From Clostridia bacterium (GTDB taxonomy: Bacteria; Bacillota; Clostridia; Christensenellales; DUVY01), in assembly GCA_036562685.1 (NCBI GenBank), contig DATCJR010000038.1, positions 1 to 36,505 on the forward strand: DNA of 36,505 bases, read 5' to 3'. Below are positions 28,559 through 32,504 of the stretch, in pieces; the stretch's first letter is position 1, and each line of letters begins with the position of its first letter. The notes beneath the pieces are model-generated. The model ran no database searches. It saw only the letters and a program-made list of their open reading frames with translations, and was not told the origin of the DNA. The position numbers and the translations under genes were made by a program.

Positions 28559-28732
28559 ATGGAAAATAAAGATACTATTAAAATAACCAAAATGTCTGAT
28601 TATGATAAAGAGCAGATCTTAAAAGAAATGAAAATAACAGATCCTTTTTATGATAAACCTACATATTATAATGACATTTTGACAAGACATATTCGACTTT
28701 CAAAACATATTAAAAAAAATTATACACAGTGA
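28559..28732 (+). CDS. 57-residue protein beside oriC, unknown
   Basis: A small, charged protein starting MENKDTIKITKMSDYDKEQI and ending in a basic stretch rich in His, Lys and Tyr (TRHIRLSKHIKKNYTQ). I do not recognise it. A clear AAAGGAG lies at good spacing before ATG 28559, and codon use is like the neighbours, so it is probably real. Its last codons overlap a DnaA-box-like TTATACACA (28720-28728), placing it at the left border of the likely origin. No membrane segment or signal peptide. Confidence 0.6.
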   Translation: MENKDTIKITKMSDYDKEQILKEMKITDPFYDKPTYYNDILTRHIRLSKHIKKNYTQ

Positions 28733-29079
28733 AATTTAAATTTTAGTTTCTTTCTATATGTTTATATTTTTTTAAATAGTAGCGTTAGTAATAGATGGGA
28801 GTTAAATTGTGGATAAATAGAGTAGAACACAAAATCGTCAAAAACATATATTCAAAAACCCTTTATATTGTATTTTATAATCTTATATTGTTGTTGAAAA
28901 CTTATCAAGATTATTTAACACATTCAAAAAAGTTATCAACAGAGTTTTCAAAAGGTTAACAACTTTTCAATTTTAAATTTCAATTCAAAATTAATTTTTG
29001 CGCAAAAAGTGTTTTCAAAATCTAATTAATTAACAATTATACACATTTTCACTCACATTTTATACAGCTTTGTGGATAA
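28720..29079. other. Likely replication origin (oriC): DnaA-box cluster
   Basis: This stretch holds two perfect DnaA boxes on the minus strand (TGTGGATAA at 28808-28816 and 29071-29079) and three plus-strand boxes with one mismatch: TTATACACA 28720-28728, TTATCAACA 28933-28941 and TTATACACA 29037-29045. Between and beside them the DNA is very AT-rich, for example around 28970-29035, suitable for a melting region. It fills the 444-bp gap (28733-29176) between the 57-residue ORF and parB, with no other ORF. parB and parS adjacent, and gyrBA, mnmG-rsmG and dnaA within 15 kb, fit an origin. Functional proof is lacking. Confidence 0.78.
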
Positions 29080-29176: not shown

Positions 29177-30055
29177 ATGGCAATAAAAAGGGGTTTGGGC
29201 AGAGGACTTGATTCGTTGTTTGGAGATAACGATTATGCCAACAAAATGCAGACTGTTGAAGTAATAGAACAAGAAAGTGAAGTTGAAATTGATAAGATAT
29301 TTCCTAACCCTAATCAGCCTAGAAAAACTTTTGATGAGCAGGCTCTTAATGAACTTGCTGATTCTATAAAAATTCATGGCGTTATACAGCCTCTCATTGT
29401 TACAAAAAGAGATGACAGATATATGATAATCGCAGGAGAACGCAGATGGCGAGCTTCCAAAATTGCTGGTCTGTTAAAAGTTCCGGCTATCATAAAAGAT
29501 TATTCTGATCAAAAAGTAAGCGAAATTTCTTTGATTGAAAACTTACAAAGAGAAGATCTCAATCCTATAGAAGCAGCAAAAGCAATAAAGCAATTAATGA
29601 ATGAATATAACTACACTCAAGAAAAAGTTGCAGAAAGATTGGGTAAAAGCCGTCCTGCTATAACAAATACTTTAAGACTTCTAACTCTTAACAAAGAGAT
29701 AATAGATATGATTTTGAAGGGAAGTCTTAGTGCAGGTCACGCACGCGCACTTTTAGCAATAGAAGATCAAGAAGGACAGCTCAAGCTAGCCAAAATTGCA
29801 GTTGAAAAGCAAATGTCGGTTAGAGATCTTGAAAGTGCGGTAAAAAAGTATTTAGCGCCCAAACCTGAACCTAAACCTGCACCTGAACAGAGTTTAGAAT
29901 TAAAAGAACTTATATATGATATGCAAAGAGTTTTTGCAACCAAAGTTACAGCTATAGGAAACGATGCAAAAGGTAGAATATATATAGATTATTTTTCAAG
30001 AGACGATCTTGAAAGAATATGCGAACTGATAGAAGATTTAAAAAAGAAGATATAA
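29177..30055 (+). CDS. parB: Chromosome-partitioning protein ParB (Spo0J)
   Basis: A 292-residue CTP-dependent DNA clamp that loads at parS and spreads. The N-terminus (KRGLGRGLDSLFG) is the ParA-interacting peptide. The CTPase/ParB domain has I-F-P-N-P-N-Q-P-R, then IIAGERRWRASKIAGL (the GERR motif), then LIENLQREDLNPIEAA. The helix-turn-helix reads YTQEKVAERLGKSRPAITNTLRLLTL at about residues 151-176. A Pro-rich linker and the C-terminal dimerisation domain follow. A perfect parS lies just behind the stop codon. Close to ParB rather than Noc, since the canonical parS is present. Unusually, it is not next to parA. Confidence 0.95.
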   Translation: MAIKRGLGRGLDSLFGDNDYANKMQTVEVIEQESEVEIDKIFPNPNQPRKTFDEQALNELADSIKIHGVIQPLIVTKRDDRYMIIAGERRWRASKIAGLLKVPAIIKDYSDQKVSEISLIENLQREDLNPIEAAKAIKQLMNEYNYTQEKVAERLGKSRPAITNTLRLLTLNKEIIDMILKGSLSAGHARALLAIEDQEGQLKLAKIAVEKQMSVRDLESAVKKYLAPKPEPKPAPEQSLELKELIYDMQRVFATKVTAIGNDAKGRIYIDYFSRDDLERICELIEDLKKKI

Positions 30056-30058
30056 AAG

Positions 30059-30088
30059 AAAAAAATGTTTCACGTGAAACATTTTTTT
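30059..30088. terminator. parS site inside a 30-bp perfect palindrome, terminator-like
   Basis: The 16-bp parS TGTTTCACGTGAAACA occupies 30066-30081 and matches the consensus completely. Seven A residues precede it and seven T residues follow, so the palindrome extends to 30 bp without a mismatch. It begins 4 bp after the parB stop. As RNA, it forms a stem with a 4-nt loop followed by a U run, on either strand, so it may act as the intrinsic terminator for parB as well as the ParB-loading site. Confidence 0.85.
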
Positions 30089-30119
30089 AATCGTTTTTTA
30101 ATCGATATCTAATTATTGG

Positions 30120-30698
30120 TTAATTGACCGCTGATATAATGTTATTGTCGGAAGCGGAATTGTATATTTTTTGCAGACTTATGTGAACTCTGATGCTTTT
30201 GTTGACAGCCTGAGCAATCTTATCAGCAAGTTTATATACAAATCCTAACTTAGCAGTTTGAAAATTATTAGAACTATTGGAAGCAACACAAGCTGAGATT
30301 CCCAAAGAACCGGCTTTTGGCAGCTTATGACCGACAAAAGAGCCAGGATAAATACCCGATGTTAGCTTGATTGTTCCGATATCTTCTGGATTTCCTATGC
30401 TGGCATCAATAGCCCAAATTTTTTGGTTTGGATGGCGTATCTTGATAAAGTCTAATGTTGTTTGAAGATTTTGAGCTGTAACTGGAAGATTTAGCGTACC
30501 ATAGACATAACAAGGTGTGTTATAAATATTTACAAGAAGATGGCCGCATAATGGACCTAAGCAGTCACCAGTTATACGATCGCTGCCTATACATAAAATA
30601 ACAGGCAATGTTTTAAAAAGCCTAAGCTTTTTTAAAAGCATGTCAGCTAGACTTGTGTAATCTGATTCAAAAGAAAATGCAGTCGTTTTCATAAACAT
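30120..30698 (-). CDS. yyaC: Spore protease YyaC family (DUF1256)
   Basis: A 192-residue protein of the YyaC/DUF1256 family, related to the germination protease Gpr fold. The motif CIGSDRITGDCLGPLCGHLL (about residues 36-55) is the family signature, followed by the A-I-D-A-S-I-G segment and the P-G-S-F-V-G-H-K-L-P loop. YyaC is a forespore protein in Bacillus, with a role in spore protein processing not well defined. The frame is open far upstream, but a -10 box (TATACT, 30709-30704 on the minus strand) puts the start at ATG 30698 or 30692, with no ribosome binding site. It separates parB and parA and is divergent from cvpA. Confidence 0.83.
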   Translation of the reverse strand: MFMKTTAFSFESDYTSLADMLLKKLRLFKTLPVILCIGSDRITGDCLGPLCGHLLVNIYNTPCYVYGTLNLPVTAQNLQTTLDFIKIRHPNQKIWAIDASIGNPEDIGTIKLTSGIYPGSFVGHKLPKAGSLGISACVASNSSNNFQTAKLGFVYKLADKIAQAVNKSIRVHISLQKIYNSASDNNIISAVN

Positions 30699-30724
30699 TA
30701 GATAGTATAATAAATTTGATATAA

Positions 30725-30737
30725 GGGAATTATTCCC
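30725..30737. promoter_or_regulatory. Palindrome between divergent yyaC and cvpA
   Basis: GGGAAT-T-ATTCCC is a perfect palindrome with 6-bp arms around one base. It lies in the short divergent intergenic region, about where -35 elements of both genes would be. It looks like a repressor operator; the regulator is unknown. Confidence 0.5.
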
Positions 30738-30784
30738 ACATAGATAAAAAAAATACGTTAGATTAGGGCAAAAGGAGGCTTCTA

Positions 30785-31522
30785 ATGGCGCTAGCAATTG
30801 ACGGTATAGTAATTGGCATATTATTGATTTTCACGCTTTACGGGGCGTATAAAGGCGCTTTAAAGTCAATAACCTCATTATTTGGTACAGCAATATCGTT
30901 AGTAATAGCTGTTTTGGTGGTATATTTTCTTGGAAATAAGGTTTATGAAATTGCGTTTATAAACAATTTGTTTGCTGCTGACAATGGCAGTCTTGCTTCA
31001 TTTTTTTCATCAAAATTACCTGACTTTAACGGAGTAACGATAGGAGCTACACAGCAAGAAATTAATGAAGCAATTGGCGGATTGTGGAGTGTAATCGTTC
31101 CGCTGTTGACCAAGGTTATTAGTAAAATGACAGGCGGTGCTTATCAAGGGCAAACGATAAATTATGCATTAGGCAGGTTCTTAGCTCAAGTTGTATTCTA
31201 TATACTTCTAGCTTTGGTAGTGTTCTTGATCTTAAGAATAATTATAAGATCATTAGAAAAGTTGATTGACAAGATCAAAGGGCAAAAGACGATCAATGAT
31301 ATTGATAAATTCTTTGGATTGTTTATAGGATTTATAAAAGGCGCTGTTACAGTTTCTTTATTATTGATTGTGTTTGGATTTATACTCAATTTGTCATTTA
31401 TGGCGCCTGTAAAAGCAGCGTTTGAACAAACTTATGTTGCTAAAGAACTTAGCAAAATAGTTTTTGAAATAGTAAATAAAATATTTAATAATCCTAAGTT
31501 TTTGGGTGGACTAACCGGCTAG
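30785..31522 (+). CDS. CvpA-family membrane protein
   Basis: A 245-residue membrane protein of the CvpA family. It begins with the family pattern D-G-I-V-I-G-I-L-L-I-F-T-L-Y-G-A-Y-K-G-A-L-K and has four hydrophobic segments (about residues 5-22, 28-49, 135-155 and 175-205), with a larger loop between the second and third that is probably extracytoplasmic. Family members are linked to colicin V production in E. coli and to envelope functions elsewhere; the molecular role is not clear. AAAGGAGG precedes ATG 30785 as a strong ribosome binding site. It is divergent from yyaC and convergent with parA. Confidence 0.8.
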   Translation: MALAIDGIVIGILLIFTLYGAYKGALKSITSLFGTAISLVIAVLVVYFLGNKVYEIAFINNLFAADNGSLASFFSSKLPDFNGVTIGATQQEINEAIGGLWSVIVPLLTKVISKMTGGAYQGQTINYALGRFLAQVVFYILLALVVFLILRIIIRSLEKLIDKIKGQKTINDIDKFFGLFIGFIKGAVTVSLLLIVFGFILNLSFMAPVKAAFEQTYVAKELSKIVFEIVNKIFNNPKFLGGLTG

Positions 31523-31541
31523 ACTTATTTGGATGTTAATT

Positions 31542-31581
31542 AAAAAAAGGCCGCTGTCTTAATAACAGCGGCCTTTTTTTT
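31542..31581. terminator. Bidirectional terminator between cvpA and parA
   Basis: A run of A residues, GGCCGCTGT (31549-31557), a short loop, ACAGCGGCC (31565-31573) and a run of T residues: a GC-rich perfect stem with T runs on both strands. Confidence 0.88.
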
Positions 31582-31648
31582 ATGTTATACATTAATAAAG
31601 GACATCAATAAAAATATGTTATACATTAATAAAGGACATCAATAAAAA
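31581..31648. repeat. Perfect tandem duplication of a 34-bp unit
   Basis: Two identical 34-bp units lie head to tail, 31581-31614 and 31615-31648. Each begins TATGTTATACATTAATAAAG and ends in an A run. They fill the space between the bidirectional terminator and the parA stop. No ORF or known motif is visible in the unit. A recent slippage duplication is the simplest reading. Confidence 0.85.
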
Positions 31649-31658
31649 GCTGTAAATT

Positions 31659-32471
31659 TTAATATTTTTTTCTCAAAACAGAAGGGTCTTCAATTTTGAT
31701 AAAGGTGTCATTATTTCTTGTCAGATATTCTTCGGTAAATGCTTGATAAGAATAACCGCCCGAGCTCTTGGGATCATATTGCATAATGGGCATTCCATAG
31801 CTGGGTGCTTCTCCAAGTCTGATATTGCGAGGAATCTTTACTTCAAAGACTTTGTTTCCAAAATATTTATAAATTTCATCAGCTACGTTATTAACTAAGT
31901 TGGATCTTCCGTCAAACATTGTCAATAAAACACCGTCAATTTCAATAGTAGGATTGAGATGTTTTTTAACAAGTTTAATAGTATTCATTAATTGGCTCAA
32001 ACCTTCCAGAGCAAAGAATTCACTTTGAATAGGAATGATTACAGAGTCGCAAGCAGTAAGAGCATTGATGGTTAGAAGACCTAGGGAAGGAGGACAATCA
32101 ATGCAAATATAGTCGTAAGTATTTTTGAGCTTGTTTAAAATACCCTGCAGAAGTTTTTCGCGCTGTTCCATATAAACCATTTCAACTTCTGCGCCTGCAA
32201 GGTCGATATTAGAAGGAATGATATCCAGATTGTCAACACCCGTAGGAGCAATAACATCATCAATAGGACAATCACCCATAAGAGCATTATAGATAGATTT
32301 GGTAAGTTTGCTTTTTTGAATTCCTAGACCGCTGGTGGCGTTTCCTTGGGGATCCATATCAACAGACAAAACCTTTTTGCCCATAGCTGCAAGATATGCA
32401 GACATATTAATGCAGGTTGTTGTTTTACCCACTCCGCCTTTTTGATTGGTAAAGGCTATTATCTTTCCCAT
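31659..32471 (-). CDS. parA: Chromosome-partitioning ATPase ParA (Soj)
   Basis: A 270-residue deviant Walker-A ATPase that works with ParB-parS in origin segregation and, as Soj, regulates DnaA. The P-loop KGGVGKTTT follows MGKIIAFTNQ at the very start, so it is the short type without an N-terminal DNA-binding domain. VDMDPQGNATSGLG, the Walker B region YICIDCPPSLGLLTINAL and the P-I-Q-S-E-F-F-A-L-E-G-L block are all present. I chose ATG 32471; GGAG lies an unusual 16 nt upstream, and a TTG at 32486 lies too close to it. The gene is separated from parB by yyaC and cvpA and points towards it. Confidence 0.95.
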   Translation of the reverse strand: MGKIIAFTNQKGGVGKTTTCINMSAYLAAMGKKVLSVDMDPQGNATSGLGIQKSKLTKSIYNALMGDCPIDDVIAPTGVDNLDIIPSNIDLAGAEVEMVYMEQREKLLQGILNKLKNTYDYICIDCPPSLGLLTINALTACDSVIIPIQSEFFALEGLSQLMNTIKLVKKHLNPTIEIDGVLLTMFDGRSNLVNNVADEIYKYFGNKVFEVKIPRNIRLGEAPSYGMPIMQYDPKSSGGYSYQAFTEEYLTRNNDTFIKIEDPSVLRKKY

Positions 32472-32504
32472 AATCGTAAAACACAATCTCCTTTGATATC
32501 AATA

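Follow-up and report, generated by a model that had tools for sequence, protein, structure and literature searches.

A perfect palindrome of 30 bp, located immediately downstream of parB in a chromosomal contig of a Clostridia bacterium, very probably serves two purposes. As double-stranded DNA it would be the loading site for ParB, and as RNA it would fold into the hairpin that terminates parB. This dual use had been predicted from the sequence of the window, by which we mean the whole 36,505 nt stretch of DNA that was analysed. The prediction gained ground in that the arrangement is conserved in the genus, is recurrent, is exclusive with separate terminators and is accompanied by compensatory changes in the flanks. 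The exact symmetry of the flanks was not conserved in the genus.

The parB–parS locus

The features of the locus are listed in Table 1. The coordinates confirmed that a mismatch-free palindrome, made up of a 16 bp parS between A7 and T7, lies 4 nt past the parB stop codon. It is exactly 30 bp long, the next pair (G30058/A30089) being mismatched. The exact 16-mer occurs once in the window, where 0.01 copies are expected, and only one site with two or fewer mismatches was found in the whole draft genome (1.8 Mb in 216 contigs, 97% complete, GC content 32%). The protein encoded next to it matched the ParB profile TIGR00180 above the cut-off, and no other parB-like gene was found in the genome. 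The setting is origin-proximal, with dnaA, gyrB, gyrA, parA and rsmG in the window and a single cognate parB in the genome; dnaA and the gyrase genes were named from their sequences and not via a family search. From the exact consensus, the position and the cognate ParB, TGTTTCACGTGAAACA is identified as the chromosomal parS, with predicted roles in ParB binding and segregation. A Noc gene with its Noc binding site was considered and rejected, as TIGR04285 scored 246 bits against a cut-off of 315 and the site is the parS consensus.

Table 1. Features of the parB–parS locus (positions in the window)
Feature	Position	Strand	Remarks
dnaA	22601-23989		gyrB, gyrA, rsmG and mnmG also in window
parB	29177..30055	+	292 aa; ParB_N and ParB HTH domains (Pfam PF02195, PF17762), GERRWRA motif, N-terminal LGRGLDSLF
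parB stop codon TAA	30053-30055	+	followed by three bases, AAG
A7-parS-T7 perfect palindrome, 30 bp	30059..30088	both	partition site and proposed intrinsic terminator of parB
A7	30059..30065	-	minus-strand T7 tract for yyaC transcripts; 3-5 long in other genus members
parS core TGTTTCACGTGAAACA, 16 bp	30066..30081	palindromic	RNA form: 6 bp stem, ACGU loop
T7	30082..30088	+	U-tract for parB transcripts; can partly pair with A-tract; 5-7 long in genus
Second T-run, T6 after AATCG	30094..30099	+	conserved in genus; possible U-tract if full 13 bp stem forms
yyaC (spore protease YyaC family)	30120..30692	-	convergent with parB; TIGR02841 above cut-off; TTG start extends ORF to 30797
parA (soj)	31659..32486	-	separated from parB, on the opposite strand

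In this contig parB is inverted, with yyaC and a cvpA-like gene between it and parA (29177-32486), whereas rsmG and mnmG retain their usual order with parA. The 360 bp directly upstream of parB (28720-29079) contain five matches to the DnaA box TTATCCACA with no more than one mismatch, two of them perfect. This cluster sits in a 750 bp gap of low GC content, with dnaA 5 kb away, and is possibly oriC or a part of it. On the 3' side of parS, a T-rich direct repeat (TTTTTTTAATCG TTTTTTAATCG; 30082-30110) is conserved in the genus and may provide a second U-tract.

A parS palindrome with the form of a terminator

The gap between the convergent parB and yyaC genes is 64 bp, and the parS palindrome is the only hairpin with a U-tract in it. 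As had been proposed, the palindrome read as RNA gives a hairpin with a U run: a 13 bp stem with an ACGU loop is predicted. Part of the T7 is expected to pair with the A7 and part to be free. The predicted free energy of the 13 bp hairpin alone is -10.4 kcal/mol (z = -2.35 in context), and that of the 6 bp core stem alone is -3.9 kcal/mol. Two other terminators in the window are much stronger, at -16 and -23 kcal/mol. The stems of intrinsic terminators are classically G-C rich. The parS stem has two G-C pairs, the rest being A-U, and was missed by a consensus terminator scan because that scan requires three. It is A-U rich, yet its score falls within the range seen for terminators of the same genome and for the parB ends of relatives, where parS hairpins scored -9.7 and separate terminators -10.4. 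No Rfam family covers the parS region.

To calibrate hairpin and tail, we used 190 kb of the same genome; the genome sample in these computations comprised 20 contigs. Hairpins of -8.0 or lower with a tail score of at least 4.13, the level of parS, were counted 25 times across 6.4 kb of DNA that follows stop codons (approximately 4 per kb), and 333 kb of genic strands contained 0-1 of them. Judged against its own genome, the parS hairpin would be called a terminator. As the A7 gives T7 on the minus strand, the palindrome also has a form suited to yyaC transcripts, which come from the opposite strand.

We consider it extremely improbable that a parS in an A/T-rich gap merely resembles a terminator by chance. 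At a GC content of 32%, runs of A and T are common, and T7 alone starts at 0.3% of non-coding positions. However, A7 and T7 spaced 16 bp apart were found at just 2 of 18,816 non-coding positions in the same genome, and a perfect palindromic extension of at least 7 by flanks at this spacing was found at 15 of the 18,816. The arrangement is also conserved at four loci of the genus and recurs in a second family.

Comparison within the genus and family

At all four parB loci of the genus, parS lies 1-10 bp past the parB stop codon with T5-T7 downstream. The three further loci, with ParB identities of 77-84%, are found in two G001 contigs, which may be two species in one bin (6% contamination), and one G002 contig. 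Their parS sites are 1, 1 and 3 bp past the stop codon, preceded by A3, A3 and A5 and followed by T7, T5 and T7, respectively, and a convergent gene is located 53-57 bp past the stop codon. Comparison of the A and T flanks, which are exactly seven each in the window, revealed that the T side is kept (5, 7, 7, 7). The A side varies (3, 3, 5, 7) and the exact A7/T7 symmetry is not conserved, only the window's own locus being symmetric. A better-kept T side is what one would predict for an element used mainly in the direction of parB.

Two other genera of the same family are organized differently. G003 has a separate G-C-rich terminator and a pair of parS-like sites at distances of 173 and 212 bp. 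In G004, the variant TGTTCCACGTGGAACA is centred in a palindrome of more than 50 bp that has no T-run and is followed by a separate terminator. Relatives that combine a separate terminator with a parS lacking A/T flanks, which had been named as evidence against dual use, do exist in other genera (e.g. G003, G055 and G174), but in these parS is not the first hairpin. This pattern argues for replacement of one terminator by another and not against dual use.

parS hairpins and separate terminators in other families

The genus g30 belongs to family f28, and 87 of its parB loci were read. They include copies with the same A7-parS-T7 configuration as the window (L304, L357 and L370) and others with A6 and T6-7 (L263, L369 and L372). 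Longer stems that include G-C pairs were also found, for example AAAAGAA-parS-TTCTTTTTTT in L368, AAAGAGAT-TGTTTCACGTGAAACA-ATCTCTTT in L350 and AAGA-parS-TCTTTTTTT in L267.

A parS hairpin with a U-tail follows 27 of the 87 parB genes. A separate terminator is absent from 26 of these 27 and present at 42 of the other 60, such that 26 loci have the parS hairpin only, 42 a separate terminator only, one has both and 18 have neither. With thresholds of our own choosing, at most 95 nt from the parB stop codon for the parS hairpin with its tail and at most 160 nt for the separate terminator, the two were mutually exclusive (Fisher P = 2.7e-9, not corrected for kinship). Exclusion was weaker in tables with a 75 nt limit and parS within 40 nt (P = 0.0043 in g30). 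The length of the T-run directly after the 16-mer had been tried as a measure and was rejected (Fisher 0.74 in relatives); it is the wrong measure because many relatives extend the stem first (AGAA-parS-TTCT-T7). It was replaced by a combined hairpin-plus-tail score.

A ParB tree was built from 99 loci in a quick IQ-TREE run, and few of its branches were strongly supported. On this tree the parS-hairpin state changed at least 12 times, which suggests that the double use arose repeatedly. Six independent pairs on well-supported branches were compared, and the separate terminator changed in the opposite direction in an average of 3.6 of them and in the same direction in none. With so few pairs, the median P of the sign test was 0.125, which is not significant, and the best pairings gave 0.03. 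The exclusion in g30 supports the conclusion that, among relatives, the parS hairpin substitutes for other terminators.

In family f32 alone, no exclusion between parS hairpin and separate terminator was detected (P = 0.45). In most of this family, parS lies beyond a separate terminator or in an array that precedes one. In 17 of 26 f32 loci (L251, L253, L254, L264 and others), parS starts 3-9 nt past the stem of a separate parB terminator, and is therefore located right where the transcript ends or beyond that point. Other f32 loci have a parS array ahead of a terminator at 120-150 nt. Among the variants in this family, L380 extends the parS palindrome by 17 bp before a T-run, and G058 has a G-C stem around TTGTTTCATATGGAACAA. 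In genus g72 (G096, G176 and G240), the arms of the terminator are parS half-sites with a loop between them, as in GTTCCACGT-GTAACA-ACGTGGGAC-TTTTTTTT in G176. Parts of this series, namely parS abutting a terminator, parS as the terminator and half-sites as terminator arms, look like intermediate states. Loop-split half-sites (GTTCCACG...CGTGGAAC-T tract) also form the arms of the post-parB terminator in L255, L259, L260 and L308, and here it looks like parS has turned into a terminator, or the reverse.

Effect of distance from parB

Because the class of parS hairpins is itself defined by pairing and tail, we added a test that uses position only. In g30, the palindromic extension of parS sites within 40 nt of parB had a mean of 5.6, compared with 2.9 for those farther away (P = 3.9e-6), and the medians were 6 and 2 for sites within 40 nt and at 41-400 nt, respectively. 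Sense-strand U-tails scored 4.57 at near and 3.00 at distant parS (P = 1.5e-8), and an excess of sense over antisense tails was found at near parS (P = 0.0013) but not at distant parS (P = 0.47). At near parS, positions 1-5 pair via A-T, G-C or T-A, both sides having changed together, with a change from A-T to G-C in both flanks at positions 2, 3 and 5.

These data bear on another explanation for the flanks, namely that they serve ParB or the mechanics of the DNA (A-tract bending, extended contacts, melting or SMC loading), with the hairpin as a by-product and the parB and yyaC transcripts overlapping without a defined terminator. Across the class, the exact parS sites among the matches listed usually have one or two extra A/T-rich flanking bases, so some extension belongs to the DNA site, and in G003 and others parS is far from the gene end. 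However, extension by 4 bp or more was seen in 25/28 parB-proximal but only 41/105 distant parS in g30 (P = 1.3e-6), and many distant parS in the same genomes lack such an extension. Moreover, the extensions include G-C pairs (e.g. AGAA/TTCT), the T-run is commoner on the sense than on the antisense side, and separate terminators are excluded. A requirement of ParB for flank symmetry would not, on its own, account for a strand bias, exclusion or a difference between near and far sites, and we regard this explanation as unlikely. The compensatory flank changes and the sense-biased U-tails at parB-proximal parS fit dual use and support it.

Proposed mode of action and origin

Under dual use, the double-stranded 16 bp core would be the single recognised ParB loading site of the chromosome. 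In RNA, the core closed by A-U flank pairs and followed by the U-tract would form a hairpin that ends parB transcription 10-45 nt past the stop codon; that it does so in the cell, and how strongly, we infer from its form and distribution. By symmetry, the same palindrome could also terminate yyaC, which is transcribed in the opposite direction. The hairpin would form only once RNA polymerase has passed parS, so that termination would not need ParB and ParB loading would not need RNA. Most likely, the two functions therefore operate at separate levels, DNA for loading and RNA for termination, without mutual interference. As the reading frame is complete before parS, the output of parB should depend little on where beyond the stop codon the transcript ends.

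ParB occupancy could instead feed back on its own gene, with ParB on parS blocking or pausing RNA polymerase, or with pausing at the U-tract limiting ParB loading, and so alter parB output or parS occupancy. The binding site does lie inside the transcribed hairpin, a point of geometry alone, and in Pseudomonas aeruginosa, promoters next to parS3 and parS4 are reported to be repressed by ParB (PMC5521831). Against this, the parB frame ends ahead of parS, and a transcript terminated at parS would still carry the complete message. Relatives with a separate terminator before parS evidently manage without such geometry, and a search for a sequence feature coupling ParB occupancy to termination found none. 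We think such feedback very unlikely. We think it equally unlikely that the element is a sensor in which ParB loading at the only centromere alters termination or polymerase dwell, which would couple parB output and centromere occupancy in cis at one locus with no repressor-operator pair.

The dual-use element probably originated from the location of parS in this order, which is often at the 3' end of parB and beside the terminator. ParB binding would maintain a palindrome with a 6 bp stem, and flank pairs and a T-run would then suffice for it to take over termination, after which the separate terminator could be lost. Co-option along this path would be easy because ParB binding holds the palindrome and parS is already in place.

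Known systems

The site shares with the Spo0J/Soj-type parS of Bacillus the exact 16 bp consensus, a cognate ParB and the dnaA/gyrBA/parA/rsmG/mnmG setting. It differs in being the sole site, in the 3' untranslated region of parB, where it is the only terminator-like hairpin. With Rho-independent terminators it shares, by sequence form, a hairpin and U-tract just past a stop codon, between convergent genes and with no other terminator, but its stem is fixed by a protein-binding site, is G-C poor and forms a complete palindrome with a 4 nt loop. The nearest precedent for the principle, a word recognised in DNA and reused as a terminator, is found in the neisserial DNA uptake sequences, which serve as rho-independent terminators when present as inverted repeats (PMC2397512). 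There, each stem consists of two copies of an asymmetric word and there are many per genome, whereas the element described here is one palindromic centromere beside the gene for its binding protein. In plasmid RA3, a centromere-like site is also located at the 3' end of the par operon, but an efficient terminator and parS follow orf11 as separate elements (PMC7414963). That arrangement is the one seen in much of f32 and is unlike the merged element in the window.

A centromere that also terminates transcription of its binding protein's gene would bring polymerase arrest and ParB loading together on the same 30 bp. It bears on whether ParB loading is influenced by transcription that reaches or crosses parS and on whether DNA-bound ParB affects RNA polymerase, and is a model for co-option of a DNA-binding palindrome as a terminator. 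In the plasmids P1 and F, the centromere lies 3' of the parB-type gene. Among the open-access papers searched, none was found to describe parS as a terminator, and the stem 'terminat' is absent from the text of a review of chromosomal ParB (PMC7022226). Such absence is weak evidence of novelty.

parS with T-runs beyond the order

In a collection-wide scan, parS followed by T7 was found in at least 119 genome stretches from many phyla. Among the matches listed, with near-duplicates removed, the upstream gene pointed toward the site in 25 and away from it in 7 (P = 0.002). Again among the matches listed, gene ends no more than 60 nt from parS-T7 numbered 11 on one side and 7 on the other, which is not significantly different. 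Long T-runs were seen at only approximately 2 of approximately 155 exact parS of the class among the matches listed, counted by eye. Since most parS of the class have no long T-run, use as a terminator would be an occasional co-option and not a general property of parS.

Several Clostridia (L036, L057, L074, L096, L115, L121 and L146) have parS with T7 between a parB/noc-like gene and parA; in these seven loci it is in front of parA and not after the chromosomal parB. In several species of Chryseobacterium (L044, L058, L063, L100 and L128), a perfect parS with an A-tract is found a few bp past the stop codon of mnmG.
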